From a virus, in IMG/VR virus record IMGVR_UViG_3300044960_000409, positions 1 through 43,497 of that record: a stretch of DNA of 43,497 nucleotides. One strand, given 5' to 3'. Below are positions 3,101 through 38,201 of the stretch, in pieces. A program made the translations under genes and the position numbers. Numbering within the stretch: the first letter of the stretch is position 1; the number at the start of each line of letters is the position of its first letter. The notes beneath the pieces were generated by a model. That model did no database searches and was not told the origin of the DNA. It saw only the letters and a list, made by a program, of their open reading frames with translations.

Positions 3101-6100
3101 CAGACGCCAGGAAGTCGTCCAGGATGTCTTCGTGCTTCCTGGCCAGCTCGAAGCCGTCGCGTGCGATCCGCGTCAGTTCGGCCAGTGTCTTTCCTGCGTG
3201 CTCTGCCGCATCCTGCGGCATCTGCATATATGCGGTGCCAGCATTCCACTCAATCTGGAAGCGTCTGATGTCTTTTTTCAGGGCGGCTATGCGCTTCAGT
3301 ATCCCGCGGGCCTCTCTAACCCCCTCACCCTTCTTGAAGAACGGCGGAAAATCGGACAGCCTCAGTCCAGCCGCCAGGACGGCCGCGCGGCCTGCTGCAG
3401 CTTCGGCCGTCTCAAGCGCCAGCCCGGCCACCGCGCGTGATGCGTCGGTGCGCCACCTGAATGTCCTGGCGGGGTCCGCAACGTCGGCCAGCTTACCGGC
3501 AATTTCGGGGAAGTCGTGCGACAGCAGCAGGGACACCCACGAATACTCAGGCTGGCCAATGCGGCTCTCTCCGTCAGGCTTTGGAGTCAGGATGTCTATG
3601 CCGTAATCCCCGCGCAGGGCGTTGACCGCCGCCCTGTACTCTGGCTGCCCGGTCACTACGTCATACGCCGACTGTCCGGGAGTAAACGTCGCGGACGGCA
3701 TACGATAGTTGGTTCTGAACTGCCCGACGATCGCACTGCGCAGAGGTTCGCGCATTGAAGGGACCGGGGTGTAAGCGTCGCCTGAGTACACGTAGAGCCT
3801 GTCGTCGTCCCACGGGATGAGCTTCGGGTCCGCGATCAGGGTCACCGTCCCGATGTCGGGAGTCTTTCCGGGGCGATGTATCGCCAGCGAGGGCATCACA
3901 AGCCCTTTCCAGCCATACATATACGCCGGGGCCGACGGCATCACGTTGGACGTGCCGTGCGTGACGATCATCTTCGTGTCGGCGCTGAACAATCTTTCCG
4001 GCTGCGTGCCGGGTATGGCCCAGTCTCCGGGCGGCACCGCCAGTCTCACCTGAGATGCCCAGAACGGTATGGCCATCGGCTTGCCGCCAATCTGCAGGTA
4101 GAACCCGTCGCGGCCCATATCCTGCAGGGCCTCCACCATCCAGCCGGTTATACCCCCGGCGTCTCCGGCCGCAAGGCGGGCAAGGGCATCGGCCAGCCCC
4201 TTCTTGCGCGCCGGTGTCACTGCGGCGGCACTCAGCACACGCCTGACTTCGGAAGTCCCGGATTGCAGGTCTTCATTGGTGACCGGGGACTCTATCCTGA
4301 TCAGGGTTGGGACATAATCGCCGCGATACGCGTCCGGGTTGAAGGCCGTGGCCTCCAGGCCAAGCAGGCGAAGGGCATCAACGATCTTCCTTGGTTCAAA
4401 GTCTGGCACCTCGCGCTTGCCGAAGACCTCAGTCAGCGCGGCTATGATGGGGTCGCCGCCTGTGTGCTCAAGCGTGGCTTCGAACGTGGTCAGTTCCACG
4501 GCCTCAGGCGCAAGCGCTGCCTCGTTGTCGGGGCCTATCGCCAGTCTGCGGGCCAGCGCGGCCACGCGCTTCCTGGCCTCCGGGGTGAGACTGTTCCACA
4601 CCATTGACGCCGGGACGAACATCCTTGGCCCGACCTTCACGTCCACGGCGTTTGCAATAGACCTGATGTAATCCACCGGCGACGGGGTCGTGTACACCTT
4701 CAGGCCCTTGTGACCCCGCGCTAGCGCAGCTGCGCCCGCGGCAGCGCTCTGGAACAACACCTGAGGCCTACCCTGGCGGTCTCTGACTACCGACCCGGAG
4801 AACCACCTCTTGAAGGCGGTGCTTCCGGTTATCGCCGGGTCCGGGGTGGCAAATGCGTCCGGCGTCCGGTCGCGCACCGTGAACAGCCTCCCCTGCACCG
4901 ACTGGTACTGCAGTCTGGCCTGCGTAACGCGCGGCACCTTCGTGTTGCCGACGGCTTCAAGGACCTGGATGTTCTTGTCCGTATAGGGAATGAACCTGCG
5001 CACCTGGTCCGCCGGGAGAGATGTAGGGGCTGCCCACCTGCCACCTTCGAAGCGCTGCCACTTCCCGTCACCGGCATATCTCCAGACGGTTGACATACCG
5101 GCTGCCCCTTCGATCGCTCTCTGGCCTACCATTGCCTGACCCATAGGCCAGCCGAAGGGGCGCTCTATCAGCTTGTGGGCCTTCATCGCCTCCACGGTAA
5201 GCGGGGTCCCGGTGCGGATGGCTCCGTACGGGTATTCCTGAGGCTTGGTGCTGTAGCGCGTATATGGCGCGCCTATGTCCGTGTCGGCAGCCAGCGGGGC
5301 CAACGGGACATAGTCCTGTATGCTGCCGAACCCCACTAGGTCTTCCAGCTCGTCGTTGCCGAACAGGCTGCCCTGGCCTGCGGTGAACAACCTGCGGGCA
5401 ACCGATGGCGTCTTGACCGCGGGAACCTCCGACCACGGAATCCCCTGCAGCACCTTTGCCGCCATCACGAGCTGGCCGAGAATATCTGCCGCGCGCGCAG
5501 CCTCTTCGCGTCCGGGGCCAACACCCAGGTATACCGCAAGACCGCTCGGCTGCACGGCCTCTACACCACCAAGGCGCTTGTAGTGTATGCCGATGACGCC
5601 CGACGACGCTATGTCTGTGAGTATGCATACCGGGATGTTCCCCAGGTCTTCGCCGTACATCCACGACACTTCAGGCATGATCGCGCTGACACGGGTTTTG
5701 GTGTGATGCTGCTTTACAGCTGTAGCCCGAAGCTCCATCAGCCTGTTTTCTGCCTCAGGGTCGTGGGCGATCAGCGCCTCAAGCCACTGGAACCCGCGCG
5801 GACCGTACGGGTTTAGCGCCATCTCCTGTCCGGGGTACCCGGCAGCCGCCAGGACTTTCAACCCTACAGTGTCCGAGCCGATCACCTTCTTGAGAAGGGG
5901 CGGGCTCTCCGGCGACCAGGCCACATGCGCATAGCGCATAGGGGTGGTCATTCGCTCGTGCCTGGACGCGTACAGCATGTAGGCATCCCGTATGACGTCA
6001 GGATCGCCTATCATATGCCACTGCGGCGGTGGCACCCACCCCTCGTGGATGGAAATGAGCGACTGCAGGTGCGGCAGGATATGCTCTGGCTCGAAGTCGC

Positions 6101-9100
6101 CTTTTGTGATCATGGGCTCCGGCACGCGAATCTCGGTCCGTGCCCAGTCAACGTCGCCGAGCGGGTTCATTTCGACCTTTGTCACGACCCCGACGAGCTT
6201 TTGCGGGAACCCTGGAACAACAGTGACCTTGGTGGCCGCCACTCCTGGATACAGACGCTCGTACTCGTCTGTGAACAGCAACTCGCCAAGCCTCACACTG
6301 TCGCCGCTTCGCAGCTCCTTGACTGCGCTCGGCAGGTGCCATTCTTTCCTCTGCCCTAAGTACTCTGTCGCCCAGTGGCCGTTGTTCTGCCTTCGCCACC
6401 CTGTCTGTTTGTATATTTCAGATTGCGGAACGCCCTGCGCCTCGAGCTCTTTGGCTCGCACAAGCCCTCGCTCTAGAGAGTGTCCGAAGCGAGCAAGTAC
6501 GTCCTGGTTGAAGGAGCTGAACTCCGCATAGTCGTCGGTGTAGCCCCGAGTCGCCCTTTCCCCTGCAAGCGTAAACAGGTACTCCCGTGTGGCCAGCGGC
6601 GACTGGCGGCCGGTGATCATTTCGTATTCGGCCGGAGCACCCTTGGCCAACATCTTCAGGACATATTTGGCCGCAGTATGGTGCGGGCTTGTGTGGTCCA
6701 GCCAGTTGGCGCGAATCGCCCTGCGCTGCGCGTCGCTAAGCTCGGACACCGGGAACTTCTTACGCTTGTCGCGGGTCCACTCTGCGAGAGTTTCGCGCAC
6801 ACTCTCGACCGTGCGGCCGTCGGGGGCTCTCCCGATGACCTGCCTGCCCGGCTCCGACAGATAAGCCACCCCGAACCGGTTGCCGGAGGACGCCCGTTGC
6901 AGCCATGCGTCAGCGCCAAGCTCCCTCATGGCGGCGGCCTGCAGGGCGGTCCTGAGGGTTGCTCCCGGCAGCATTGAGCGCGCGTGGCGGGTGATGTACA
7001 CGTTCAACACATGGCCCCCGTCACGCGAGGCAGAACCCGGCGTCAGGGCCATCGTGGGAGTCAGGTCCCAACCGCCTCTGGCGGCAGACGTGTCAGACAG
7101 GACCGTGATGTTGACCGGTATATCGCCGATTCCCCTAGCCAGCCTGACCAGCCCGGAGGTGCCGGGGATATCTTTCAGCGTCAGGCGGCGTGTCCCGAGC
7201 GGGAGCGACTTCTCAAATGCGTCAATCTCAGGGTTCGGCCCGGCTAGGGCGTCAATGACAGACTGAGGCACGCGACGGGCCTTCAGCACTTCGCGCACGG
7301 ACGCGATGGAGGCCACAGCATCGGCAATACCTAGGCCGCCAGATGCCACCATCACCGGAGGAGCCGCGGGAAGCTCGTATGCTCCGTCGCGTGCGCCCAC
7401 ACGAGGCAAGTGCGCGTATGTCTGGACGGCGTTCCTGGCTTCAGGGGCGGCCTCGCGGACCGTGAACATGGACTGCTGACCGGCCTGATCCTGCTGTCTC
7501 TTTGCGGCTTCCGCCTCACGTTGCCGCTGTTGCTCCTGTAGCTGTGCGATGCTCAGGCGCAACTTGTCCAGGACTTCAGGGAAGAACTCTGCAGCCAACT
7601 CGGAGGGCGTGGGCACCCTGTCTATCTTGATGCCGTCGCGAATCTTCTGCCGGACGCGCTCGTCCAGGTCCCTGTCCAGGTTGAACAGCATCCTGACCTT
7701 GTCCAGGATGTGCCTGTTCGAGCTTGCCACGCTTTCGGCCTCTGCCTTGCGCTCCTCGGCCTTGATGGATTCTCCTTCGAGAAGTTCAACGTCGGTAGGG
7801 GCAAGGACTGCGGCCCTGTACTGGCGGGCCTTCTTGGCCAGCACCTCCTTGACCTGATACACCACGGCCTCGACGTCGGCCAGAGTCTGCGCCCAGGCCT
7901 CATCGAGCACCATCTGCCCTGTTCCGCCGGTGAACCCAGGCCCGGTCCTCTGGATCTCGTGCTGTTGCAAGATGTCCTGTGCGAACAGCGCTGCTTTCTG
8001 GTACGAGGTGATCTCGGTCTGCATGATGCCGCGCATCACCATCAGCTGCAGGTCATGGTCTGACACGTAGTCGCCGATGGCAGCGCCGACGTCTTCCGAG
8101 ACAGCGCCGTTCGCAACGTTTGCCAGCGCCTCGTCAGACAGCTTGGCAAGGCCACGGATATTGCGCGCGATGCCCATCCTCAGGCTGATGCCGTGCTCCT
8201 GCAGGCGCGACATATCCATGTTGAGGTCGCGCAAAGCTCTCAGGGCGTCCAGTGCCGTGCTGTGGCCCGCCCTGATATTCGACACGGCGGCCCAGCCACG
8301 CACTTTCTCCAGCGTCCAGCCGTCGGACTCCCTTAGAATGCGTATCGGGATCTTGCGGTCTTTCTGCTCGACCAGCTCTATTGGGTTGTCGGGGTCGCTG
8401 GTCGGGCGCTCTATGAGGAACCGCTTTGCGCGCTTGGCCAGGTCCAACCTGTGGTGCCCGTGAACCACGTAACGCGTTCCGTCTTCCCGCTCCCAGACGT
8501 CAAGCTGCCGGGCTTGATCAACGAAGAAGACGTCCGTGCCGCGCAGCGTATCCGTGACCCTGTTCTCAAGGTCCACAAGGCCCGTCTTGAACTGAATCTC
8601 GGGGTGCACCTTGATACTGCCTGGGTCTACCCACTCGTCAATCCGGACCTCCCTGTCCTCCATGCTGTCGGGGCTGGGTCTGGAGACCTTCTCCGCAGGC
8701 TTCTCCGCAGGCTTCTCTGCAGGCTTCTCTGCAGGCTTCTCTGCAGGCTTCTCTGCAGGCTTCTCTGCAGGCTTCTCTGCAGGCTTCTCTGCCTCAGTTC
8801 GCGGCGGTGCCTTTTCGGCCTCTTCGCCCGGAAGCCTGGACCACCAGCCTTCCGGATGCCTTGCGAAGTACCTGTCCAGATACGCCCTGACATTCGGGTG
8901 AAAGTCCCGGTTCTCTGCGACGACGCCCCTTCTCACAACCTCGGCGTTTGCTCGCGTCACAGGGACCAGCTCGCTTGCCCGGAAGTCGGTCGTTCCGCGC
9001 GGGTTGTCAGTCCAGCTTGCTGCGTTCAGCCTGAGCTGATACACACGTTCTCCGCGTTCGCGCACACCCGTATCGCGGACCAGGGTGTAGACGGCATTGT

Positions 9101-12100
9101 AATAAAAGCCATCCCGCGACCGGACGAAGAACTTCTGCCCCTTGCGGAATCTTCCGGCGTCAGGGTCTTCGTAGAGGCCTGCGGGGCCAAGCTCCTCAGG
9201 TGTCAGGCGTCTTGACAGTTTGAGATGATTGAAGTCGTTGTCTATGACAGCTTTGTAGGGGCCGCGCGCATAATGCTCAATCGAGTCCCTGATCGTCTTG
9301 ACGCCCTGCTCGAACTGCTCATCGTCGAACCACGTCGGCCTCAAGTACACACCCCTGTAGGTGTAAGGCACCTCCTCGTCCGGGAGGTCAAGATGGCCGA
9401 CCTCTGTCCGGTATTCGTTGACCTTGCGCACCTGCACTGGCGGGAGCTTTGCGGGCGTCTCCGGCGCTTTCTCCGGCTCTGCTGCGGGCTGCGCGGGCTG
9501 CTGCGGCTGCGTCTCCTTCTGTTCCGGCGGCACAGGCTCCATTGTGAAGCGCGACGGCTTATCCAGTTCTGACGGCGCTTGCTCCGCCGGGGCGGGTTTT
9601 TGCGGCTCGGGTTGTGTGGCCTCCTCGGCGTATCGGGGCTGCTGCGCCACACCTGCGTGCGCAAGCAGCGCCTGCGCCACGTAGTCCTGCGTGCCGCTTA
9701 CATCGCGCGAAGCCTGCTCCGCAAACCGCGTGGCCACCTCCGGCGTTATCGCGCCGTCAGGCGCAGCCTTCTTCAGGAACTCACCCAGAAGCCTGGCCTC
9801 GTCATAATACAGCTGCCGCGCAACAGGAGTCTGTGATTCTTTGAGCCTTACGCTGTACGCCGGACCGTTCGTCCTTTGTCCGCGGGGCGCCTCCGCCACA
9901 TACGGGCCGAGGTCCAGGGTTCGCGGAAAGGCGCGGCGCTGGATTATTGACCTCCGGGACGAGTCAGTGGCAGGGACGGCCAGCGTCCTCATCTCTTCAA
10001 GCCGTTCCCTGCGCCTGATCTCGTACGGGTCCGTCGTGGTGGCCCCTTCAGGCACCTGGCCGGGCTGCCAGCGCGGCACGTTGATCGGAGGGCCAACGTA
10101 CATCGGGGGCGGCGTTGGCATCCCGATATCACGCGGAGCAAGCGGCGAAGCGGGCCGACGCCACCCCTGGCCGGGCTGCGCTTGCCCGGAGGCAGCTGCC
10201 TCTGGACCGGTCTCTGCCTGTGCGGCCGCCTCCGGGCTCCATTCGCGCGCCTGCACGCCTCCGCTGGCCCACTGACTCCTGAACTGCCTGTAGGTGCGGA
10301 ACTCGGGCTTGTATAGCGCGCGGATGAAGTCCGCTACGCGCCTCACGACTACCGGCGCCGAGCCGCCACGCGCCATCTCGCGCGCAAGGTAGGTCATTGT
10401 GTAGGCCGCGGCCTCGTCCACGGACTGAGAGTTCGCCCAGTTGACTGACAGGCCGTATTTCTGCGCCCCGACCTTCGCAAGCGCCATGTGCTCGTCGTCC
10501 GTGACAAGCCCGCCATGGCGCATCACGTGGTAGATCTCATGCGCCACATCCCCGATATCCACGGTGTCAGGGTTCTCCATCCTGACGAACACGCGGGGAT
10601 TGTTCGGGTCTGTGATATCTGTGAACGCAGGTGGAAGATCTGCGGCGTTTTTGATGGTTTCGCGTGAACGCTCGTACGCCTCGCGGCTTTCTTCGACAGC
10701 CCTGCGAAAGAACTCGTCGTCTCGCGCCTCTATTGTGAACGTTCTGCCGCCTTCGGTCTTGACCCTGACACCGTTCGGGACGGTTTCGACGTCTACTTCG
10801 ACGTGCTGGCCGCCGGGCACAGAGCGCAGGATCTTGCGGAGATAGGCGCGTGTAAACGCCTCGCTTGACTCGCCCTGGGCCAGCGCCTCCTTGATGTCGG
10901 CCCAGCGCTCCGATGTTTGCACCCCCTCGAAGTTGACTCCGTAGCCGTCCTTGTCGCGGAATGCATGACCCTTCGGCGGCTTCACGAACTCCGGGGCTGG
11001 CCTGCGCTTCTCGCCGGTGACTTCCTCAAGCGCGGCCTCTGCGGCCTGCTGAGCATACTGGCCACCAAGCTTGCCGATGGCAGCGCCTGTAAGGGCAGTC
11101 ACTGCGGCTCCGCCGCTTGCCAGGAGTCCTTCAGACAGCACCTCTGCGGCCATCTTTCGAGATGCCAGCGGCGTGCCTACGGCCAGCTGCGCCCCCAGCT
11201 CCTGTCCGGACTCGGCAACCGCACCGGCCGTTGTGGCCAGCGCGCCGCGCCCGAGCCTCTGCAGCATCGAGATGCCGGGCGTTGCGGCCCAGGCCCCGAG
11301 ACCCATAGTGGCCAGGCTTCCGGGGACGCCGAGGGCAGCGGTTGTCTGACCGTGAATGTGCCCGTACTCCTCGGCCTTGCGCCTGAACGTCGGGTTTGCG
11401 GCTGCCCACCGCAACGCCCGCGCGTCCTTGACGTTCACCCCATGCTCGCGCAGGTAGTTGAACTCCTCAAGAGCGGAATCAATGGCGTATTCGGACCGTG
11501 CCTGTCCCAGTGCGCCTGCGGCAAGGCCTGTGGCGATGCCCCCGACACCGGTAGCTTTGCCAAGGACAGCGCCGACGATACCGGCGACAGGGGACCTTGC
11601 GATCTCAGGAACCTGCTGACCGAGCTGTTCCCACGTGAGGTCCCATATGCCCTGCCCCCAGTTCCCGAGGGCGTACTTCCACCAGTCCAGGTGTGTCGGG
11701 TCCAGGCCTTTCTTCTTTATCTCCTCGACGCCTTTGGCGCGCCCCATCCTGTCTGCCGTGGCGGCCAGGCGCGCGGCCTCCTCGTAGTCGCCGCGCTTGT
11801 ATGCCAGGGCCGCCTCGATGTTCAGGCCGCCTGCCAGGAACGCGTTCACCGCCGTGCCTACAGGTCCCTTAGGCGGCCGCTCGTCTTTCAGGCTTGCCGC
11901 GTCGCTTACGGCCGACCTGTAGACCTCCTGCACTTTGTTGGTGACGATGTCAGCCGCGGACTGCGCCGCCCTTCCGGCGATCATGTACTGCGCCGCCCGC
12001 TTCAGGACTTCCGGCGCCATCTCACGCGCAGCAAGCCTTGCCGTAAGCAGCGGGGCCTGCTCCGCCAGCATCGTTCCAGCCGGGCCTGCCACAAAGCGAG

Positions 12101-13367
12101 CCGCTCCGCCTGCCGTGCCAACGGCCGGTCCAACGCCGAGGCTGCCGATGGTGGCCGCCGTGATGGCGGCTGCCTGCATCCACGCCCGCTCCGGAGATTC
12201 GGCCTCCGCCTGCAGCTGCGCAGGCGTGGGGCTCGGCAGTTTGACGCCATGCCACAGACTTTCATCAGGCCGCGGCGGCAGCATCGCGCCTTCGGGCGGC
12301 GGGACCACAAATTGCCGCGGCCTTCCCGGCGGTGTCAGGCGTTCGTGGCCAAGGCGCATGCTATGCGCGTCCAGAAGTGGGCTCTTTACCTTGTCGGCGT
12401 TCTCTACGATGTCCCGGCTGATGCGCGCCGTCAGATATGCGTGCCTGACGGCCTCCGGGTTCCATTTGAAACCGGCGTATTTGACGTCGGCCATCAGCTC
12501 GTCCAGGCCCTCCCACGGCTCCGCTTTGACCCGCCACGTTGCGATCAACCGCTTGGCCTGCTCGCTTAGCTGAGGCCCTTTATACTCGCTGACCTTCTCG
12601 AACTTTGGCGGCTGCTTGAACTCGGGAAGCGGTTCCTTGAACTGCTCCAGCCTGTCTCTGACGGTGTAGAACCCGCCGAAGTGCTTCTTGTTATACGGGG
12701 CGTCGAGTGTGTCGTAGATTACTTTGCGGCGTCCGCCTGCTGCGGCATGGACGAACTTCTTGCCGCCAAGGTAGATCCCGGCATGGAACACCTCGCCCGT
12801 CTTAGGCCTGCGGAACAGGATCACGTCGCCCGGCTGAGCCTCGGCCTCGCCAACGCGTGTAAGGGTCTTCTCCATCTCCTTTGTCGTCCGCGGCAGCTTC
12901 AGGCCAAGGTCACCGAACACGCACTGAACAAAGCTGGAGCAGTCATAAGGGGTGTTCCTGTCAGCGCCGCCCGGTGCTCCGAACTTGTACGGAGCGCCGA
13001 GACGTTTCTCTATCGCCTCTGTCAGGCGCTGCTGCGTCTCGGGGGAGAAGCTGCCGTACCTCGGAGTCATGACCTTATTGCGTATGAGGACGTCCTCTAT
13101 GGTCTCTCCGGGGCGGCGCTTCAGATTCTTCATCTGAGCTTCCTGCTTGGCCGCTCCTTCCGGCGCAACCGTGCTCATAGCACCTACGCGCGTCAGGATG
13201 TCCTCTATGGTCTCTCCGGGGCGGCGCTTCAGCTCTTTGAGGGATTCGGGCAGCGGCTTTTCTACAGGCTCTTCCTGCCACACTTCGGGCACCCTGTATG
13301 GCCCGAAGCTCATATCCTTCAAGAACTGCTCAATGTCGTCGTAGTCGTAGTCGTTCTGCCGCCTCAT
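1..13367 (-). CDS. Giant 4507-aa polyvalent/ejection protein (N-terminal 99%)
   Basis: The frame is open from ATG 13367 to base 1 and continues across the circular junction to a TGA at 43214-43216, giving 4507 residues. The ATG overlaps the stop of the preceding gene (ATGA). Domains read by hand: a duplicated PGETIED motif (about residues 45-100); an NlpC/P60 cysteine peptidase (about 110-225; Cys143 in YDCSSF, His195 in FHAGIYLG); Ala/Gly-rich hydrophobic stretches (about 390-780); a zincin motif HEIYH at 943-947 with acidic residues downstream; eight EKPA repeats (about 1526-1560); a ParB/sulfiredoxin-type segment (GHH at 1637-1639); a degenerate ART-type entry motif near 2852-2875; a polyvalent-core-like segment with GLVMPSLAI (about 3130-3190); and hydrophobic segments near the C-terminus (about 4100-4330). 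Its place after two internal-virion-like genes and before lysis matches T7 gp16, so I infer a virion ejection protein with cell-wall hydrolase activity. The separate roles of the internal domains are unknown. Confidence 0.93.
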   Translation of the reverse strand, partial: MRRQNDYDYDDIEQFLKDMSFGPYRVPEVWQEEPVEKPLPESLKELKRRPGETIEDILTRVGAMSTVAPEGAAKQEAQMKNLKRRPGETIEDVLIRNKVMTPRYGSFSPETQQRLTEAIEKRLGAPYKFGAPGGADRNTPYDCSSFVQCVFGDLGLKLPRTTKEMEKTLTRVGEAEAQPGDVILFRRPKTGEVFHAGIYLGGKKFVHAAAGGRRKVIYDTLDAPYNKKHFGGFYTVRDRLEQFKEPLPEFKQPPKFEKVSEYKGPQLSEQAKRLIATWRVKAEPWEGLDELMADVKYAGFKWNPEAVRHAYLTARISRDIVENADKVKSPLLDAHSMRLGHERLTPPGRPRQFVVPPPEGAMLPPRPDESLWHGVKLPSPTPAQLQAEAESPERAWMQAAAITAATIGSLGVGPAVGTAGGAARFVAGPAGTMLAEQAPLLTARLAAREMAPEVLKRAAQYMIAGRAAQSAADIVTNKVQEVYRSAVSDAASLKDERPPKGPVGTAVNAFLAGGLNIEAALAYKRGDYEEAARLAATADRMGRAKGVEEIKKKGLDPTHLDWWKYALGNWGQGIWDLTWEQLGQQVPEIARSPVAGIVGAVLGKATGVGGIATGLAAGALGQARSEYAIDSALEEFNYLREHGVNVKDARALRWAAANPTFRRKAEEYGHIHGQTTAALGVPGSLATMGLGAWAATPGISMLQRLGRGALATTAGAVAESGQELGAQLAVGTPLASRKMAAEVLSEGLLASGGAAVTALTGAAIGKLGGQYAQQAAEAALEEVTGEKRRPAPEFVKPPKGHAFRDKDGYGVNFEGVQTSERWADIKEALAQGESSEAFTRAYLRKILRSVPGGQHVEVDVETVPNGVRVKTEGGRTFTIEARDDEFFRRAVEESREAYERSRETIKNAADLPPAFTDITDPNNPRVFVRMENPDTVDIGDVAHEIYHVMRHGGLVTDDEHMALAKVGAQKYGLSVNWANSQSVDEAAAYTMTYLAREMARGGSAPVVVRRVADFIRALYKPEFRTYRQFRSQWASGGVQAREWSPEAAAQAETGPEAAASGQAQPGQGWRRPASPLAPRDIGMPTPPPMYVGPPINVPRWQPGQVPEGATTTDPYEIRRRERLEEMRTLAVPATDSSRRSIIQRRAFPRTLDLGPYVAEAPRGQRTNGPAYSVRLKESQTPVARQLYYDEARLLGEFLKKAAPDGAITPEVATRFAEQASRDVSGTQDYVAQALLAHAGVAQQPRYAEEATQPEPQKPAPAEQAPSELDKPSRFTMEPVPPEQKETQPQQPAQPAAEPEKAPETPAKLPPVQVRKVNEYRTEVGHLDLPDEEVPYTYRGVYLRPTWFDDEQFEQGVKTIRDSIEHYARGPYKAVIDNDFNHLKLSRRLTPEELGPAGLYEDPDAGRFRKGQKFFVRSRDGFYYNAVYTLVRDTGVRERGERVYQLRLNAASWTDNPRGTTDFRASELVPVTRANAEVVRRGVVAENRDFHPNVRAYLDRYFARHPEGWWSRLPGEEAEKAPPRTEAEKPAEKPAEKPAEKPAEKPAEKPAEKPAEKPAEKVSRPSPDSMEDREVRIDEWVDPGSIKVHPEIQFKTGLVDLENRVTDTLRGTDVFFVDQARQLDVWEREDGTRYVVHGHHRLDLAKRAKRFLIERPTSDPDNPIELVEQKDRKIPIRILRESDGWTLEKVRGWAAVSNIRAGHSTALDALRALRDLNMDMSRLQEHGISLRMGIARNIRGLAKLSDEALANVANGAVSEDVGAAIGDYVSDHDLQLMVMRGIMQTEITSYQKAALFAQDILQQHEIQRTGPGFTGGTGQMVLDEAWAQTLADVEAVVYQVKEVLAKKARQYRAAVLAPTDVELLEGESIKAEERKAEAESVASSNRHILDKVRMLFNLDRDLDERVRQKIRDGIKIDRVPTPSELAAEFFPEVLDKLRLSIAQLQEQQRQREAEAAKRQQDQAGQQSMFTVREAAPEARNAVQTYAHLPRVGARDGAYELPAAPPVMVASGGLGIADAVASIASVREVLKARRVPQSVIDALAGPNPEIDAFEKSLPLGTRRLTLKDIPGTSGLVRLARGIGDIPVNITVLSDTSAARGGWDLTPTMALTPGSASRDGGHVLNVYITRHARSMLPGATLRTALQAAAMRELGADAWLQRASSGNRFGVAYLSEPGRQVIGRAPDGRTVESVRETLAEWTRDKRKKFPVSELSDAQRRAIRANWLDHTSPHHTAAKYVLKMLAKGAPAEYEMITGRQSPLATREYLFTLAGERATRGYTDDYAEFSSFNQDVLARFGHSLERGLVRAKELEAQGVPQSEIYKQTGWRRQNNGHWATEYLGQRKEWHLPSAVKELRSGDSVRLGELLFTDEYERLYPGVAATKVTVVPGFPQKLVGVVTKVEMNPLGDVDWARTEIRVPEPMITKGDFEPEHILPHLQSLISIHEGWVPPPQWHMIGDPDVIRDAYMLYASRHERMTTPMRYAHVAWSPESPPLLKKVIGSDTVGLKVLAAAGYPGQEMALNPYGPRGFQWLEALIAHDPEAENRLMELRATAVKQHHTKTRVSAIMPEVSWMYGEDLGNIPVCILTDIASSGVIGIHYKRLGGVEAVQPSGLAVYLGVGPGREEAARAADILGQLVMAAKVLQGIPWSEVPAVKTPSVARRLFTAGQGSLFGNDELEDLVGFGSIQDYVPLAPLAADTDIGAPYTRYSTKPQEYPYGAIRTGTPLTVEAMKAHKLIERPFGWPMGQAMVGQRAIEGAAGMSTVWRYAGDGKWQRFEGGRWAAPTSLPADQVRRFIPYTDKNIQVLEAVGNTKVPRVTQARLQYQSVQGRLFTVRDRTPDAFATPDPAITGSTAFKRWFSGSVVRDRQGRPQVLFQSAAAGAAALARGHKGLKVYTTPSPVDYIRSIANAVDVKVGPRMFVPASMVWNSLTPEARKRVAALARRLAIGPDNEAALAPEAVELTTFEATLEHTGGDPIIAALTEVFGKREVPDFEPRKIVDALRLLGLEATAFNPDAYRGDYVPTLIRIESPVTNEDLQSGTSEVRRVLSAAAVTPARKKGLADALARLAAGDAGGITGWMVEALQDMGRDGFYLQIGGKPMAIPFWASQVRLAVPPGDWAIPGTQPERLFSADTKMIVTHGTSNVMPSAPAYMYGWKGLVMPSLAIHRPGKTPDIGTVTLIADPKLIPWDDDRLYVYSGDAYTPVPSMREPLRSAIVGQFRTNYRMPSATFTPGQSAYDVVTGQPEYRAAVNALRGDYGIDILTPKPDGESRIGQPEYSWVSLLLSHDFPEIAGKLADVADPARTFRWRTDASRAVAGLALETAEAAAGRAAVLAAGLRLSDFPPFFKKGEGVREARGILKRIAALKKDIRRFQIEWNAGTAYMQMPQDAAEHAGKTLAELTRIARDGFELARKHEDILDDFLASVMRFVTYNTPSELVTADNVEGLYRVTPEIVNAYAARYKTVAGRVLAATAGVRPDQDVESLVTVEHWIKPLKRLKGLKDVKGRAPYLMPSDVPGATSIPIDYEMRGAMEFLRNLQRQGEITEEDAERVSDHVARIWDEAMLLLPHREFDAARTAEEVISNRIPRPVLNRYGPLVYQTLLAEIENQQQMYAAPYFEAKYMGHMPLNVFKLAIAGTETARTDLKAALRRAGIELIPYREREGHRARQTAVEEAAARHDLIFWTAGDPPPDDGTVFVYRGSRKEMEDDLRMGKRISSINVKLIDLSMASDPDRVLDEFRAFARKQAEDIRAPQSWNKTRILALAAAADLTPERMRRLLGRPVTAASPEELIAVYGVMLNLREEAHAAAVTYFNEPTLENARAMAEAQRQYELAWMLADAQTRRAGQALNALKMIKRAFDSQEPAAIVAQRLMEIQGHITDMQMMAIQQANGDPVELRKLLDRAMDLQLRFGDKLHAIQYCALLSSIGAHAANLYGNLFHWFLTESVTKPVAGVLDAAAGGDRSRYAGVNQLTAIYELASTKAGRVELVKMLTGAVHSARAAFRFGADQQTLDKYELRWIKDLPNIRVGDKEYVNPINWPGRALLASDSMARAIITRLYIEEMAMSSARAYFGRRGIKPTPQEYAAYIAETRAKLAMDPYTTEQANEYADDILYTKQHPTGFVGQFFNLVEESVWEGIKPVKFVVPIKNVVVNMARVSGQYTPLGFIEFLLRHKHLNRRQKTLLLSRAIVGTAFITGVLAMQSAGMIQLVGEGPDPALSTERLRRNLGKRAWTIRIGNIYIPLQEFGPLAMAMYFAAGWTQAVKEGNTPLLSGFLAMYQGLLETTFLQGISSFMKALSDGGTWVERTGSNILNQLIPYSGLLGNIATAVHPVAPFLQRRPEEREVHAIARRLASRFPVIRGMLPQQIDPFGRPVPQEPTGLRAFFRIAGMRYKEDPVVDELLRIRYGPAYVSSIMTINKKQYRLSWEEWLQYQKEAGPRVYKALEELFNSEDYKNESD
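8689..8792 (-). repeat. 12-bp tandem repeat encoding (EKPA)8 linker
   Basis: Eight full copies and a partial copy of a 12-bp unit (plus strand TTCTCTGCAGGC, the first two copies with TTCTCC). In the frame of the giant protein it encodes Glu-Lys-Pro-Ala repeats at about residues 1526-1560, between the zincin-containing region and the ParB-type segment. Such charged Pro/Ala repeats are typical stiff inter-domain linkers. The copy number is likely variable. Confidence 0.9.
13093..13232 (-). repeat. Duplicated PGETIED motif near the N-terminus of the giant protein
   Basis: Two exact 32-bp copies (13093-13124 and 13201-13232), 108 bp apart, each encoding a segment with LKRRPGETIED just before the NlpC/P60 domain. 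The exact nucleotide identity points to a recent in-frame duplication of a 36-codon unit. Confidence 0.85.
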
Positions 13368-16712: not shown

Positions 16713-17205
16713 CGTCGTGCCTCAATATAAAGTATGATGCCTGCTCAAAGTATCGCGCGAAGAATGCGTGTTCTTTGATCTCCTCCCACACCACCGCGTC
16801 GGCCCCCATCTGCTTTGTTATGCCTATGAGGCCGTCTATGACACTGATGATCGTGCGAGGACTGCGATGCTCAGGCTCTATGTACAGGTCTTGCACGAAA
16901 GCCGCGGTCTGCGGCCACTTCTCACCATACCATTCTCCCCACGCATCGAGCGTGATGGCGACTGCGCCGATCGGCAGGACTTCCCCGCCCTGCTCGCGGC
17001 CTATCAGAAAGATAACACCACTGGCCATGACCCCCTCAAGGTGCTTCTCAAGCGCCTCGAAAGACGGCCTGTACCCCCTCTCTGCCACCTGCTGATACAG
17101 ATAGCGGAAAGCCTGGTCGTAGGCTTCGCCAGGCCCGGCCACTGGCTTGATAGCAAGAGGTTCGCCACCCCAGCGCGCTATCAGGTCTTTTATGGTGCTA
17201 GCCAT
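16633..17205 (-). CDS. GNAT-fold acetyltransferase-like protein, 190 aa
   Basis: The start is ATG 17205 (MASTIKDLIARWGG), overlapping the glycosidase stop by 16 nt; the open frame extends further upstream but that part reads as out-of-frame noise. The core FVQDLYIEPEHRSPRTI followed by a helix resembles GNAT motif A (beta4, pyrophosphate loop, alpha3), and later ADAVVWEEIKEHAFFARY fits the motif B end. The loop has HRSPRT where a typical GNAT has Q/RxxGxG/A, so acetyl-CoA binding is uncertain. GNAT-like folds are known in internal virion protein A of T7-like phages, and the position among virion genes fits that. The last 27 codons overlap the next gene and look like overprinted tail sequence. 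Confidence 0.75.
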   Translation of the reverse strand: MASTIKDLIARWGGEPLAIKPVAGPGEAYDQAFRYLYQQVAERGYRPSFEALEKHLEGVMASGVIFLIGREQGGEVLPIGAVAITLDAWGEWYGEKWPQTAAFVQDLYIEPEHRSPRTIISVIDGLIGITKQMGADAVVWEEIKEHAFFARYFEQASYFILRHDDGKEAVVSTATESGRIRAGAESASST

Positions 17206-20200
17206 CTTGCCCGGTATTTGCCTCTCCAACCATCGAAGTAGTACAGCTTGCCCGTGCTGATGATGCTCATAGCGCTGTCCCGGACTTGCACTTCTGCGAG
17301 TTCTATCGGCCCGGATAGTGTGTAGAGGACCCTCAGGTAGCGGGCCTCGCCATTTAGCGGGATTGTGATAACAGTCTCTCCGCTCTGGCCAGTGTTCGCC
17401 CACTGCCCGACGCCCGCCCAGCCATCGCCTTTGGGAATCTCCATGACCCACTGTACGGGCTCGACTGCTTCGTTCGGGTCGGGGGGCATCGTCATGCTCC
17501 ACGTGTTGCCGGGCGCAGTCCAAAACTCTTCAGGCTGGGCCACGCCCAGGCTCCCTCTCACATTGGATGTTATAAGCCATTCATAACGCTGCGGCTCCCA
17601 TGTCATAGTCACCTCTTCTGCCACAAGATTCGGTGACGAGGTGTTCACAGTCGCATAGGTCACCTGAGAGGTCTCTACCCGGCCTACACACACGCGGCTT
17701 ATGGTCGCGTCCTGCGGCCAGCCGGTCTTGCTGCCCTGCACGGTCACGGTCTGCAGATTCTCCGCGCGGCGCACAATCAGCGACAGACTGCCAAGTGTGT
17801 GCTTTCGCGACGACGGAACAGGAGTGTTGCCGCTGTACGTCACTAGGTCAATGATGATGCCGGGAGCCAGCGCCAGCTCCTTGATCATATGAAGGACTGG
17901 CTTCGCCATCAACGGCACGCCTGTCTGGCCCGGCGTGTTGTTGAACAGCCCGTCATGCGCGCCGTGCATCAGCCACTCATTGACAGGGTGTTCATGCCTG
18001 TCGGTGCCGGGCCACCACTGGACGGCCTCGTAACGCCCCGTCCTGAACATCTTGCACAGAGCCTGAAAGGCGTACTCGGCCTGCCTGCGCTCGTTCGGGC
18101 CATCGGTGGTGACCTGGTTTGTGGCGGCCAGCATGCCGCACTGGGTGGAGAACTCCCCGGCGAAAATGGGCTTGTCGTTGTCGTTGCCCTGCTGCAGCTC
18201 TGTGATCATTTGCTGCAGGTGGTTATCGAAGGACGTCCCCGGAGCGTTGCGGCTGAACCAGTACGGATGCCAGGCGGCTATGTCGAACACGCTCTTGCTG
18301 ATCCACTGGTAGAGGTTCGAATGCAGCGAAACGATTGAATGGTCGTCAGGCCACCCGGCGTTGAGGACCTTCGCCTGCGGCAGCACGCTCTTGACACCGG
18401 CAGAGAAGGCTTCTAGGCATTTGGCGTACAGGTCGAGTCCCCCGGTCCATGTCCACCACGGGGCGTTGTGCACCTCGTTGCCGTACTCAAAGTGCATTAC
18501 GCGGTCGCCAAACTGCTGTGCCAGCGCGGCCCCGAAGGCCTGAACGGCCGGAAGGTCCACGTAGTGGTACATCACCTTGCAGTTGTCGGGGATGCCAGCG
18601 CCTCCACCTGTCACGCTCCAGTCGTCCACTGTCACGGTCATGTGATTGCGCTGCGGCTGGTGCTCGAACGCGATCCCGGCATATACCGGCGCAAACCCCG
18701 GCATCGAGAACGTGCGGTCCGTTGCGTACGGCGTCTTAGGGCGCATTGTCACAGTGAAGGAGTCGCCGACACGCGTCACCGTCAACGTCACATCCTGGAC
18801 CTCGTTGAATCCGTCCATCAAGTTATGGACGTCGGAGCCGTTTTGCCGGGCGACTACGAGCAGCTTCCTGTTTGCCCCTCCATCGCTTATCTGCAGCGCC
18901 TTGACATAGTTGTCTGCGTTCTGCCACAGAACGATGCCAACTGCGGCCCTGTTCGCCCCCGTCGTGGCTGGCATCGAAGTCTTCAGTGAGATGGTGAAGT
19001 TTGCGGTCCCGTTTGTTACAGGCTGCAGGTACATGGCGCGCAGCCCGGACCATATCGCAGCCGTGACCGCGCCCCCGGACACAGACATGACCGGCAGCTC
19101 CCACGGACCCCTGAAGTAGAAATCGTCAAAGGAGACCAGCGTCGAGCCGCTTGCGCCCGACTTTATCCACATGCCCACCAGGTCTGTCAGAAACTGGTTG
19201 GCATATGAGGCTGTCAGGTAGCTCTGATTGTCCTCCAGTCCGCTAACCCAGGCCTGAAATGTGTTGCCGGTCTTTCTGAGGAAGATGCGCCTGTTCTTGG
19301 ACCATGTCCAGCCCAGCGTCTGTGATGTCGAGACGCCGCCCTCGACCTTCTGGAGGGTCAGTTGCCCGTTATGGTTCATGAACGCGCGGATATAGTTCGT
19401 CGCGTCCATGCGCACAACCAGACCAACCTCGGAGCCCGATACCGTCGTCACGTTGGACATATCCACAGTGACGAGCCAGTCGGAGTAGTAACTCGCAGAG
19501 GTGTGGAACTGGAGCTCCGAGGCCCCCGAGGCAGGCATGGTGATGTTCAGTTTGCCATCCACAGTGTAGGACGGCTGCGTCCCAGTAAAGCTCCAGATTT
19601 GCTCCAGGTCTGGCCCGGGGAATCCGTCGTAAACGCGCTCTCCGGGGACCGGGCCAAGGTCGTCCTGATACCACGTCCAGGACGGACCGAAGCCTGAGCT
19701 GAAGTCGTTGGCCATCTCGGGCACACTGAAGCCTGCCGCTCCCTTTGTGAGCACACCGGTCAGCTTTTCGACGGTGTACTCAACAGGCCTCTGGTAGACC
19801 ACAGTGTAATACTGGTACGATGCCCTTACACGCGCGCCCGGCTGCGGCGCTGTGGCATTGCACAGCATGCGGCTGTCTTTGAACGTTATCCGGCCGGTGT
19901 AGTCCGCGTAGTAGACCTTTCCCGTGCTGTTTGAGTCGAGCCTCTGAACCCTCGTCCAGGTCTCCCACACGTTGGTCCCGGCGCCGGTCTCGACCTCGAC
20001 AACAAGCGTGGACAGGTCAATCGGCCAGCTTCCTGTGTATGCGCAGTATCTATCCGCAAAGCCCTGCGAGGACGTCCGGGTTTGCCGGTTGTTGTTCTCG
20101 TCTACAAGCGCCCAGGAAAGCAGCTGCTGAGAGACGGACGACTTCGTCGCAGCACTGTCTATTAGGCACGGCCCCGGACGTTCTCCGTTGCGGTCCTCAA

Positions 20201-20648
20201 TGAATATTGGCGCGTTCGGCAGCGTTGCCTGTCCGTTGACGAACGTCACGTCTTGCGGCGTGTCCACACTGTTGATCGGTGGGTAGACCCTGTAGCGGTT
20301 CCCCGTTCTGTGCCCCGGTGTGTATCCAGCCTCTATTGCAATGGTGCATCCGTTATTTCTCAGATACGTAATGTCGCTATTTATGCTGTATGCATTCCAG
20401 CTGTATACGCCAGGGGCAGTCTCTACGATACCCCACTGGACCTCGTAGCGGATGCCCCGCACACCTTTCCCGATAAGCTCCGCTACTTTGTCCTGGTAGC
20501 TGTGCGGATTCGGGCCGTCGTTCGGCATGTTGACACCAAACGGGCAGAACTCCCCAAGGTCATACGTGCGATCCTGCAGGTCTGACGAATCAGCGAACAC
20601 GGGGACGTAAGTGTCTCCGCTTCCGTCTGTGAGCGCCGTGAGCGCCAC
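17190..20648 (-). CDS. Tail-associated glycoside hydrolase-like protein (clan GH-A type), at least 1152 aa
   Basis: A TIM-barrel glycosidase of clan GH-A type is suggested by FEYGNEVHN (acid/base candidate Glu725), IFAGEFST (nucleophile candidate Glu832) and WHPYW between them. An early barrel segment (FGVNMPNDGP, about residues 37-115) is separated from the catalytic half (about 690-900) by some 500 residues containing two beta-sandwich, LamG-like modules. The C-terminal 200 residues look like carbohydrate-binding beta domains. It probably cleaves or binds host surface polysaccharide. The only in-frame start is GTG 20648, which lacks a Shine-Dalgarno site. The frame stays open upstream through a Gly/Pro-rich linker as far as the end of the SGNH gene, where a slippery T-run lies, so it may be made as a -1 frameshift fusion. 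Confidence 0.82.
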   Translation of the reverse strand: MALTALTDGSGDTYVPVFADSSDLQDRTYDLGEFCPFGVNMPNDGPNPHSYQDKVAELIGKGVRGIRYEVQWGIVETAPGVYSWNAYSINSDITYLRNNGCTIAIEAGYTPGHRTGNRYRVYPPINSVDTPQDVTFVNGQATLPNAPIFIEDRNGERPGPCLIDSAATKSSVSQQLLSWALVDENNNRQTRTSSQGFADRYCAYTGSWPIDLSTLVVEVETGAGTNVWETWTRVQRLDSNSTGKVYYADYTGRITFKDSRMLCNATAPQPGARVRASYQYYTVVYQRPVEYTVEKLTGVLTKGAAGFSVPEMANDFSSGFGPSWTWYQDDLGPVPGERVYDGFPGPDLEQIWSFTGTQPSYTVDGKLNITMPASGASELQFHTSASYYSDWLVTVDMSNVTTVSGSEVGLVVRMDATNYIRAFMNHNGQLTLQKVEGGVSTSQTLGWTWSKNRRIFLRKTGNTFQAWVSGLEDNQSYLTASYANQFLTDLVGMWIKSGASGSTLVSFDDFYFRGPWELPVMSVSGGAVTAAIWSGLRAMYLQPVTNGTANFTISLKTSMPATTGANRAAVGIVLWQNADNYVKALQISDGGANRKLLVVARQNGSDVHNLMDGFNEVQDVTLTVTRVGDSFTVTMRPKTPYATDRTFSMPGFAPVYAGIAFEHQPQRNHMTVTVDDWSVTGGGAGIPDNCKVMYHYVDLPAVQAFGAALAQQFGDRVMHFEYGNEVHNAPWWTWTGGLDLYAKCLEAFSAGVKSVLPQAKVLNAGWPDDHSIVSLHSNLYQWISKSVFDIAAWHPYWFSRNAPGTSFDNHLQQMITELQQGNDNDKPIFAGEFSTQCGMLAATNQVTTDGPNERRQAEYAFQALCKMFRTGRYEAVQWWPGTDRHEHPVNEWLMHGAHDGLFNNTPGQTGVPLMAKPVLHMIKELALAPGIIIDLVTYSGNTPVPSSRKHTLGSLSLIVRRAENLQTVTVQGSKTGWPQDATISRVCVGRVETSQVTYATVNTSSPNLVAEEVTMTWEPQRYEWLITSNVRGSLGVAQPEEFWTAPGNTWSMTMPPDPNEAVEPVQWVMEIPKGDGWAGVGQWANTGQSGETVITIPLNGEARYLRVLYTLSGPIELAEVQVRDSAMSIISTGKLYYFDGWRGKYRARWLAP

Positions 20649-20725
20649 TGACTGGGGCGCAGCGTCAGGGATATTGGGCGGAGGGCCTGACCCCCCGTCT
20701 CCCTGAGACTCGTATTCAGTTGTTA

Positions 20726-21889
20726 TTACAAAAAAGGGACTTTGCGCCTCGTCCCGGCTTTGATGCCTTCGTAGAACCGCTTGGCTATGTTGACATAAGC
20801 GAGGTCGTTCGGGTGCTTGTCTGACTGAAGTCCGATGCTCCAGTAATGGCTTGTCTGGTAGCCCGTTGTGCCTATGATCGCAAAGTTGGCACGCATCGCG
20901 CTGTAGTGCGGGCAGATCTTGGCTACCTTTGCGTTGGCATTGTAAGACTTTGCGGTGCTCCCAAGCTGTGCGCGCTGCACAGTGATTGTCGAAGGCGCGG
21001 TCACGGCGGTGATCTTGACGTATTCGCTATTGGTGTCGCCTTGTAGCCCGTTTTCAGGAAGCAGCGCCACATACTCACCCGGAACAAACAGGCTGATGCG
21101 GTTTACCGACAGGTTTGTGTCCGTTGTGCCGATATTGGCAGTTAGGCGTGCCGACGGCCCCGTGTATGCATTCTCGTTCCCGTCGAACATCTCGGAACCA
21201 TCGTCTGTCTTGTAGTAGACAGGCACGATATTGGAGAGACCCTGGCTCACAAGGTCCCGGATGGCATCCTGCAACATAGGGCCGAACCCGCCCGTGGAAG
21301 GCGCCCATGCACTTTGCGCACCAACAACCACGATCCCGTCACATTCGGACGCGATTTGGCGCAACACGTAACGGTACGCCTTCGCTATTGCCGGGCGGTA
21401 TGTTCCGTCCAGGTTTCCCCAAGTCAGGACCTGGGTTCCAGCTGGCCAGCTGCGCTGCTGCGTGTATCCTGCGCCGCGCACGATATTCGTCAATGTGGTA
21501 CCGCTGACAACGCGTGCCATGATCATTTCTTCGTTTGTGCCGTCCGTCAGGATATAGGCGCGGCCGGGCACCGCGTTTGCGTTTGTTGTCACGCGGGTTG
21601 CACCCATTGGCAGAGGTGCTGTGATCGAGCTTACCGTGGTGCTCGAATAATCGTTCTCACCAAACCCGGCGATGCATACCACGTCCGGTTTGAGGTCCCT
21701 GACGGTCATCCACTGTAGCAGGACATGCCCTATGGTCGGACTTGAATCCTGATGCGGAGTCACAAGCACCCACGGCTCGCTGGTGCCTGCCCGCAAAAGG
21801 TTGAGCAACTGCGCCTGCAGGGTGTTTTTCGCTGTAGAAGCGAACGCGCCACTTGCAATGCTGTTTCCAAGAATCGCCAGGCGTTTCAT
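20726..21889 (-). CDS. SGNH/GDSL esterase-like tail protein, 387 aa
   Basis: SGNH-hydrolase blocks are visible: block I ILGNSIASG (Ser10), block III GFGEND (Asn79), and a block V-like DKHPND (Asp357, His359). The fold is interrupted by two similar beta-rich insertions, about residues 85-155 and 248-322. Both have a pattern of T-x-L...V-x-G-x-Y/A-x-x-L followed by a RG or Q-x-G-type end, like modules common in phage tail fibres. It probably deacetylates host surface polysaccharide, which would suit the glycosidase encoded next. The start is ATG 21889, 2 nt after the upstream stop. The natural stop is TAA 20726-20728, right after a T6 slippery run. Confidence 0.8.
   Translation of the reverse strand: MKRLAILGNSIASGAFASTAKNTLQAQLLNLLRAGTSEPWVLVTPHQDSSPTIGHVLLQWMTVRDLKPDVVCIAGFGENDYSSTTVSSITAPLPMGATRVTTNANAVPGRAYILTDGTNEEMIMARVVSGTTLTNIVRGAGYTQQRSWPAGTQVLTWGNLDGTYRPAIAKAYRYVLRQIASECDGIVVVGAQSAWAPSTGGFGPMLQDAIRDLVSQGLSNIVPVYYKTDDGSEMFDGNENAYTGPSARLTANIGTTDTNLSVNRISLFVPGEYVALLPENGLQGDTNSEYVKITAVTAPSTITVQRAQLGSTAKSYNANAKVAKICPHYSAMRANFAIIGTTGYQTSHYWSIGLQSDKHPNDLAYVNIAKRFYEGIKAGTRRKVPFL
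20729..20738 (-). other. Candidate -1 ribosomal frameshift site
   Basis: On the minus strand the SGNH gene ends C CCT TTT TTG TAA. It contains two overlapping X XXY YYZ heptamers (CCCTTTT and TTTTTTG) directly before the stop. A -1 shift enters the frame GTA ATA ACA ACT..., which is open for 27 codons (linker with GDGGSGPPP) into the glycosidase, giving about 1566 residues. A 7-bp GC hairpin (CGGGGGG/CCCTCCG) lies about 31 nt downstream, farther than usual stimulators. This is inference; a real indel or assembly error is possible. Confidence 0.5.
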
Positions 21890-26168: not shown

Positions 26169-26172
26169 ACTG

Positions 26173-26198
26173 CAGGGGGCAGCTCGCGCTGCCCCCTG
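26173..26198 (-). terminator. Strong hairpin between capsid and downstream genes
   Basis: Perfect 11-bp stem (CAGGGGGCAGC / GCTGCCCCCTG) with a TCGC loop, 9 nt after the major capsid stop on the minus strand. There is no T-run, so a full intrinsic terminator is doubtful. It may attenuate transcription, protect the capsid mRNA 3' end or limit translation of the next gene. Confidence 0.6.
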
Positions 26199-26206
26199 CT
26201 ATCTGC

Positions 26207-33210: not shown

Positions 33211-33377
33211 GTGTAGTGGACTCAAGTCTTTGGTAAAAAACGTTACCCCCTGTCGCAAGTGGAGTCGCAAGAAGAGGGGGATTTAGGCGAATGTGTGGAG
33301 GGGAAACCCTACGGGGGCGATAGCCCGCCCGGATACCCACCCCCGCCACCTCCTCCCAGCAGGGAGTGAGCTGGACC

Positions 33378-33481
33378 GCCACTTCGTGGCCTTTGATCTT
33401 TGCAAGAGAGAAAGAGCGGACGGGCACTTCGTGCCTTTCCATCTTTGCTTAGAAGATATGCGGACGGGTCACTTCGTGACC
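33378..33481. repeat. Three 45-bp repeats, each with a covarying mini-hairpin
   Basis: Hairpins GCCACTTCGTGGC (33378-33390), GGCACTTCGTGCC (33423-33435) and GTCACTTCGTGAC (33468-33480) start exactly 45 bp apart. The outer stem pairs differ between copies but always remain paired. Each is followed by an ATCTTTGC box; GCGGACGG precedes the second and third. On the minus strand the loop is C-GAA-G, known to form very stable DNA mini-hairpins. Confidence 0.85.
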
Positions 33482-33850
33482 TCTTGATCTTTGCCCCCCC
33501 GCGGCTCTGCGAAACCGTCGCAAAGGGGCGGTCCGGTCGGGGTCTGGAATAGCCGCGCCCGGTCTTTGTGTTTCCCTCCGTGGCCTGCTTCGCCGCATCC
33601 AAGGCCGTGGAGGCGCTGGCCGCCTGCCACGGCCGCGCTGGCCGCTCGTGTGGTTATCACATTCACTACGGCCGCTCTTTCTATTCCGGGGCCGTGGAGG
33701 ATATCCTGCCCGCATCAGCCGCGCCCGCCACCCATCCGCACGCATCATCTAAGGAACGAGCCGCCGCCACATCCCACCCGCACGCGCCGCCATCCGCCCG
33801 CGATCACCCGCCGCCCGCACGCAACGCATTGCGCGTGCATCCGAGCACGC

Positions 33851-36966: not shown

Positions 36967-37285
36967 CTTCGCGGTATACCTGTCGCCATCTGGCCGGTAT
37001 ATGGTGGTCGAACCATACCGCGGGCGTGGCCACAGGGTCGGGACATTACAGGAGGCGATGAGGATTGCAAAAGCGATGGCTATGTCCGAAATGCAATGTG
37101 ATGGAGGTCCGGCGGGAGGGCCTGATGTGCATGGCGTGCTACTCACGCTCGTGGACTCAGGAGCTGCCCCCGGAGAAAGCCCTGAGGTGGAAGCACCAGC
37201 TGAGGGCGGAAGAGTTGGACCGGAACCTGCGCAGGCAGGGGATGGACAGGCGCCAGCGCCAGAAGGCGCTGAGAATGATCACTAG
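36959..37285 (+). CDS. Small protein, 108 aa, partly overprinted
   Basis: The first 45 residues (GDFAVYLSPSGRYMVVEPYR, then helix TLQEAMRIAKAMAMSE) look like a compact beta-beta-beta-alpha unit. The remaining 60 are Gly/Ala/Pro/Glu-rich and lie in a different frame over the zinc-ribbon part of the next gene. The start ATG overlaps the helicase stop. The N-terminal part is convincing; the C-terminal tail may simply be read-on until the first stop. Function unknown. Confidence 0.6.
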   Translation: MGDFAVYLSPSGRYMVVEPYRGRGHRVGTLQEAMRIAKAMAMSEMQCDGGPAGGPDVHGVLLTLVDSGAAPGESPEVEAPAEGGRVGPEPAQAGDGQAPAPEGAENDH

Positions 37286-38201
37286 AGAGGTGAGACAAAT
37301 GGACACACTGCCAGTCAGGTCAGAACAGTCGGCTGCCCTTCAGCGCAAGGGATTCAGTCCCGACGAGATTGCAACCATCAAGAACAGCCTTATGCCGGGC
37401 TGTAGCGACGCGGAGCTGAAGCTGTTCCTGCTGCGCTGTCAGCAGAGCGGCCTGAACCCGCTGAAAAGCCCGCCCGAGATATGGGCCATCCCGTTCAAGA
37501 AGAACGTCGGCACACGCGACAACCCGCGATGGGCCACTGTCTATGTCACACACACGAGCATTGACGGACTGCGGGTGGCCGCATTCCGGAGCAGGCACAT
37601 CACAGGATTCCTTGGCACCACCTCGCCGCAGTGGTGCGGCGAAGACGGGCAGTGGAAGGACGTGTGGCTGTCCAAGCAGCCGCCAGCCGCCTGCCGCGTC
37701 GGGGTCTACATGAAAGGCGTCCCGGAGCCTGTCTACACGGTGGTCCTGTGGAGTGAGTTCGAAAGTGTGCGGAAAAGAGCCGGGGCTGACGGCGGCAGGT
37801 GGGCAGAGATGCCTTCCCACATGTTGGCCATAGCGGCGGAGAGACGGGCGCTCAGGAAGTGCTGCCCCAACCTCTCGGACCTGCTGGGCGACATAGAGGC
37901 TGTCGAGGCCGGAGAGGCCCCGCCATCGGTCCAGCAGCTGGAGGCAGAAGCACTGCCCGGCGAAGTGCCTGATGCCGCAACGGAGGAGGCGGAGGCCGTA
38001 GACACGGAGACGGGGGAAGCTAACTCGCCCGGCACGCACCTGGAGGCATTCTTCAGCGCGGCCAAGAACTCTGGAATCCCGTCACGCGGGGCAGCCCGCG
38101 CATGGATGAAGCGCGAGTTCGGAACCCTGCCAGAGGAGGCCGATGAAGAATCGCTTGAGGCTGCTATCGGGGTTCTGATGGAGGCCACAAATGGAACGTA
38201 A
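37065..38201 (+). CDS. bet: Zinc-ribbon fused to Bet/RecT-type recombinase, 378 aa
   Basis: Single-strand annealing recombinase. From Met79 (ATG 37299, with GAGAGGTGAG upstream) the sequence follows the Red-beta family: MPGCSDAELKLFLLRCQQSG, EIWAIPFKK, THTSIDGLRVAA, and later WAEMPSHMLAIAAERRALRK with CCPNLSDLLGD. The same frame extends upstream without a stop to TTG 37065, preceded by GGAGG, and encodes CPKC...CMAC, a zinc ribbon, plus a basic helical linker. The product may be a 378-residue fusion, a 300-residue Bet, or both. The C-terminal about 90 residues are an acidic linker plus a small helical domain. It acts with Gam encoded downstream; no partner exonuclease is recognised. Confidence 0.85.
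   Translation: MQKRWLCPKCNVMEVRREGLMCMACYSRSWTQELPPEKALRWKHQLRAEELDRNLRRQGMDRRQRQKALRMITREVRQMDTLPVRSEQSAALQRKGFSPDEIATIKNSLMPGCSDAELKLFLLRCQQSGLNPLKSPPEIWAIPFKKNVGTRDNPRWATVYVTHTSIDGLRVAAFRSRHITGFLGTTSPQWCGEDGQWKDVWLSKQPPAACRVGVYMKGVPEPVYTVVLWSEFESVRKRAGADGGRWAEMPSHMLAIAAERRALRKCCPNLSDLLGDIEAVEAGEAPPSVQQLEAEALPGEVPDAATEEAEAVDTETGEANSPGTHLEAFFSAAKNSGIPSRGAARAWMKREFGTLPEEADEESLEAAIGVLMEATNGT

Follow-up and report, generated by a model that had tools for sequence, protein, structure and literature searches.

The DNA analysed here (referred to below as the window) is a 43,497-base stretch, IMG/VR virus record IMGVR_UViG_3300044960_000409, from an uncultured phage. Its late module lies on the minus strand and encodes, in order, the small and large terminase subunits, the portal, a 344-aa ORF and the major head protein, followed by ORFs of 142, 209, 882 and 184 aa and an SGNH ORF. 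A glycosidase-like ORF comes next, then a small ORF of ~190 aa, two ORFs of 546 and 568 aa and finally an ORF of at least 4,455 aa that reaches the contig end. This gene order suggests a short-tailed phage. The last ORF (3–13367, minus strand), which is open at the contig end, carries an NlpC/P60 domain at aa 124–231 and shows weak matches to large-polyvalent-protein (LPD23) and PBECR5 nuclease-like domains; a 12-nt tandem repeat (8.8 copies) lies inside it at 8688–8792. Between the stop of the major head protein gene and the next start sits a perfect 12-bp G/C hairpin with a 4-nt loop and no T-run (26172–26199, minus strand; z −4.15), with a possible role in limiting transcription or protecting the end of the mRNA. 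A C-run-rich stretch at 33368–33494, with a 45-nt repeat in ~2.8 copies, separates the minus-strand late genes from plus-strand genes. The window also contains a gene for a C-5 cytosine DNA methylase (39065–40024, plus strand; Pfam E 2.6e-66) and a RecT-family gene (37065–38201).

The present analysis concerns the junction between the SGNH ORF and the glycosidase-like ORF, where the following features were found.

20726–21889, minus strand: SGNH/GDSL-like hydrolase ORF; 0-frame product of 387 aa from an ATG start
20747–20750, minus strand: Shine–Dalgarno (SD)-like GAGG upstream of both heptamers, 8 nt from CCCTTTT and 11 nt from TTTTTTG
20732–20738, minus strand: slippery heptamer 1, C CCT TTT, by direct reading in the SGNH frame
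20729–20735, minus strand: slippery heptamer 2, T TTT TTG, in the SGNH frame, with the tandem stop TAA TAA directly after it
20649–20725, minus strand: 77-nt stretch from the SGNH stop to GTG 20648, reading ITTEYESQGDGGSGPPPNIPDAAPQS in the glycosidase frame; probable linker in that frame
20658–20712, minus strand: predicted downstream RNA hairpin, starting 16 nt after the heptamer
20598–20600, minus strand: alternative in-frame GTG ahead of the barrel, with GGAG 14 nt upstream (anti-SD duplex −6.4 kcal/mol)
17190–20648, minus strand: TIM-barrel glycosidase-like ORF with a DUF1349 (concanavalin-like) insertion; 1152 aa from GTG 20648

The ATG of the SGNH ORF is preceded by a good SD sequence (−7.3). 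The translated protein matched Pfam Lipase_GDSL_2 with an E-value of 1.2e-4 (23.1 bits, under the cut-off of 32.9), and residues 227–322 matched the tail protein family phrog_1101 (E 2.5e-10). GNS, GEND and HPND blocks are present in the translation, the expected set being Ser (GxS), Asn (GxND) and DxxH. The Asp is found at −2 from the catalytic His instead of the usual −3 (SDKHPND), a displacement of one residue. The SGNH assignment is weak but sensible, and the product is probably a hydrolase or esterase. The SGNH domain is seemingly split by two tail-fibre-type beta insertions, one at about aa 86–155 (by eye) and the other at aa 227–322 (the PHROG match). In a low-confidence prediction of secondary structure the SGNH fold closes with a helix at residues 363–377, ten residues ahead of the stop, which would place the slip site between domains. 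AlphaFold models made without an alignment, among them one of the downstream protein, had pLDDT values of 37.5 and 34.2, too low for a fold search.

The downstream ORF was called a glycosidase in the initial annotation. It contains a DUF1349 domain (E 4.5e-9) inserted in an apparent TIM barrel, which has weak similarity to the beta-amylase N-terminal barrel (E 0.002), and YGNE and AGEF motifs are visible in its translation; the GH-A pattern is NE at strand 4 and E at strand 7. None of the Pfam glycosidase families matched this ORF. The barrel similarity and the NE/GEF motifs speak for the label, while the Pfam result does not, and we regard the product as a candidate and probable sugar-cutting enzyme. 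A possible second frame break at 17.2 kb was dismissed, because the gene that follows starts from an ATG of its own (17205) and overlaps the end of the glycosidase-like ORF.

On the minus strand the 3′ end of the SGNH ORF reads GTC CCT TTT TTG TAA TAA, so that two heptamers overlap at its last codons. The −1 frame reads PFFVITTEYESQGDGGSGPPPNIPDAAPQS-VALT... into ORF 17190–20648 and is open for ~1,179 codons. The initial description of this junction, a double slippery heptamer at the gene end with the −1 frame open into the glycosidase, was borne out: both heptamers are in frame, and the length of the fusion, put earlier at about 1566 residues, was recomputed as 1566 aa. Such sites are rare in this DNA. 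The late genes (10,831 codons) hold 15 in-frame XXXYYYZ heptamers, two of which are the ones at the junction, and the T-run there is the only T6 in these genes and their longest A/T homopolymer. When the window and all fetched viral loci were surveyed together (425 kb; 612 distinct stop-to-stop ORFs of at least 150 codons), the SGNH ORF was the only one of the 612 with an A/T heptamer within its last five codons. In E. coli, C_CC.U_UU.U is frameshift-prone, at >0.1% without stimulators, and H_HH.U_UU.Y motifs, C_CCU_UUU included, are among the efficient ones; UUG as the second codon is poor in bacteria, and U_UUU_UUG is absent from the efficient motifs (PMC4066793). In a slip on CCCTTTT, tRNA-Phe re-pairs perfectly, and a tRNA-Pro with anticodon GGG would do so too.

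The coding character of the junction was analyzed with a 3-periodic model, whose training set comprised the remaining late genes and those parts of the SGNH and glycosidase-like ORFs that lie well away from the junction. The model preferred the SGNH frame to ~20741 and the glycosidase frame from 20740, a switch that maps to the T-run; upstream of it the glycosidase frame is clearly non-coding. The gap between the ORFs (20725–20649) scored 0.56 in the glycosidase frame. In the simulated null for the gap (mean −7.6, sd 4.9), 3.6% of sequences reached this score (P 0.036) and 3.3% were also open (0.033), while 5% of true coding sequence (mean 4.9, sd 2.9) scored as low, placing the gap at the 5th percentile. 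Since its score beats most null sequences, the gap is probably coding. At 77 nt it is also the longest in the late module, where all others are at most 39 nt, and that much untranslated DNA would be exceptional there. Chance placement of the heptamers at the junction is therefore unlikely, because the T6 and the ORF-end A/T heptamer are both unique and the gap is unusually long and coding-like.

We also looked for elements that could stimulate frameshifting. The GAGG at 20747–20750 forms an anti-SD duplex of −8.1 kcal/mol, which ranks within the top 7% of positions in the late region. SD-like sequences ahead of a slip site are known to stimulate frameshifting (PMC4066793), and this one may do so. 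Downstream, a GC hairpin had been reported earlier at about 31 nt. This spacing holds for the inner G-run stem, but the structure begins closer to the heptamer, its first pair lying 16 nt and the main stem 22 nt away. The 109-nt downstream stretch has a minimum free energy of −44.2 (z −3.46); 13% of late-region windows fold as well, or 7% after GC correction. Stimulator structures are usually spaced 5–9 nt from the slip site, with a minority at 12–15 nt (PMC5009743), and the hairpin, at 16–22 nt, was rejected as a classical stimulator on spacing. A downstream structure is not obligatory for bacterial frameshifting (PMC4066793). A search of Rfam gave no match.

Searches of viral contigs, plasmids, 50,697 phage records and a set with one genome per species yielded no relative of the SGNH or the glycosidase protein; the genome-scale scans used exact peptide patterns, which are sensitive to close relatives only. 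A search with the junction pattern, allowing variable run length, returned no second copy. Terminase relatives exist at 41–55% identity. Those designated L002–L016 share only TerL with the window, and neither the SGNH nor the glycosidase protein turned up when the larger ones were searched over their whole records; the nearest relatives by TerL and portal (L017 and L018) are fragments that end ahead of the tail genes. Conservation of a site among relatives is what tells programmed frameshifts apart from accidents, and these collections gave no homologue of either protein to compare. In a large survey, gene overlaps were expected to account for about one-third of orphan frame breaks of this type, and errors or indels for the remainder (PMC3711429); these proportions cap our confidence in a programmed frameshift.

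The junction could instead separate two genes. In that case the T-run is a coincidence, and translation of the glycosidase would begin by coupled re-initiation or without the help of an SD, at GTG 20648, at GTG 20600 or at a rare codon such as ATA 20726. GTG 20648 is the first canonical start in the glycosidase frame, and there is no ATG, GTG or TTG upstream of it in the −1 frame. The initial annotation considered it the only start and lacking an SD site. The second point is correct, as anti-SD pairing there is −0.1 kcal/mol, compared with −6.7 on average for late genes; the first overlooked GTG 20600, which also precedes the barrel and would keep it whole. The SD of this second GTG is poor and distant, and ATA 20726 has no anti-SD pairing (−0.9). 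As stated previously, no alternative ATG lies ahead of the barrel, ATG 20528 being already within its first strand. Other late starts, such as those of g142 and TerL, also have weak SDs, and since some late genes lack a strong SD, the lack of an SD at GTG 20648 is supportive of translation across the junction but not decisive. The RNA around GTG 20648 shows no more structure than the regional average, and the tandem TAA TAA resembles a genuine gene end; both are compatible with two genes. Against these points, separate genes would lie 77 or 125 nt apart in a module whose other gaps do not exceed 39 nt, the gap is coding-like in the glycosidase frame, re-initiation would find no start codon close to the stop, and a slippery site exactly at the junction would be a rare coincidence. 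We consider two separate genes unlikely, although by no means negligible.

It is slightly less probable still that the ORFs form one fused gene whose T-run in the contig is one base off, through an assembly error or a natural strain indel at the domain linker. As the longest A/T homopolymer in the late genes, the T-run is where an indel would most readily arise, the reading continues through the linker, and orphan frame breaks often turn out to be errors or indels (PMC3711429). The initial annotation took a run of either T5 or T7 as evidence of a simple fusion; a longer run would indeed give one, but a shorter run leads into the third frame, which stops at once. The other late genes, including the 13.4-kb ORF, are all intact despite many homopolymers of five or more, which points to a low error rate, and an accidental shift would have to hit a short inter-domain linker, after a complete SGNH domain, and meet a tandem stop. 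These three considerations (the tandem stop after the run, its location in a linker after a complete domain and the intact late genes) favor recoding over an indel, while the long homopolymer and the base rates favor an indel over recoding. Slippage of RNA polymerase on the T-run would yield mixed transcripts, some of them encoding the fusion. T7-type polymerases slip on as few as four T, but bacterial RNA polymerase requires at least seven (PMC6260861), and no phage RNA polymerase was recognised among the scanned proteins; this route is very improbable.

Taken together, we believe that ribosomes produce the glycosidase as an extension of the SGNH protein, with a probability of about 0.65–0.7. 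The case for reading across the junction is stronger than originally presented because of the rarity of the site, the coding-like gap, the packed module, the sharp frame switch and the poor starts. Programmed −1 frameshifting is the leading mechanism for it, held at somewhat less than even odds. The arrangement of the sequence, the scarcity of such sites and the coding-like character of the gap are directly observed; slippage, its rate and a use of the product on the virion are inferred. Thus, of the frameshift fusion proposed in the initial annotation, reading of the glycosidase from the SGNH frame is supported and programmed slippage is unproven. A T-run differing by one base, or weak initiation of the glycosidase on its own, fits almost as well as a programmed frameshift.

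Under programmed frameshifting, translation of the SGNH enzyme would normally stop at TAA TAA, while a fraction of ribosomes would slip back one base on CCCTTTTTTG. The slip could occur with tRNA-Pro moving from CCU to CCC and tRNA-Phe staying on UUU, or with tRNA-Phe and tRNA-Leu slipping on UUUUUUG, and the GAGG just upstream may help. Shifted ribosomes would read the Gly/Pro linker and then the glycosidase, giving a protein with both enzymes that would be used on the virion. A little more tentatively, the frameshift may add a polysaccharide-cutting enzyme to part of the esterase copies, with one site setting the ratio of one- to two-enzyme tail protein. If so, a single short site would determine the mix of one- and two-enzyme fibres, and gene callers could miss or mis-start catalytic parts of tail proteins.

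The arrangement can be compared with several known frameshift systems. Like the tail assembly chaperone genes gpG/gpGT of lambda, HK97 and many actinophages, it has a −1 XXXYYYZ slip between adjacent late ORFs. Unlike them, the SGNH/glycosidase pair is not beside the tape-measure gene, the proteins are unrelated and the ORFs overlap only at the slip site; a chaperone frameshift was ruled out, as these are large enzyme-like ORFs with no match to a chaperone PHROG. The heptamer with an SD-like sequence upstream resembles the −1 cassettes of the IS3 family and dnaX, but no stem-loop or pseudoknot lies at a working distance here. The known cassettes carry AGGGAG or GGAG, and the GAGG found here is weaker. 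Phage structural proteins with frameshifted extensions include those of T3/T7 gene 10, Lactobacillus phage A2 and Listeria phages A118/A500 (PMC5009743). As in those phages, a gene of the structural module has a slip site at its 3′ end, and reading in the −1 frame would give some copies of the product an extra C-terminal domain. Their extensions are Ig-like or short and are attached to a coat or tail-tube protein, whereas the one predicted here would be a large enzyme (~1,180 aa) on a probable enzyme. If this reading is correct, recoding in phages is not limited to assembly chaperones and to extensions of coat or tail-tube proteins but also reaches enzymes that open the surface sugars of the host.
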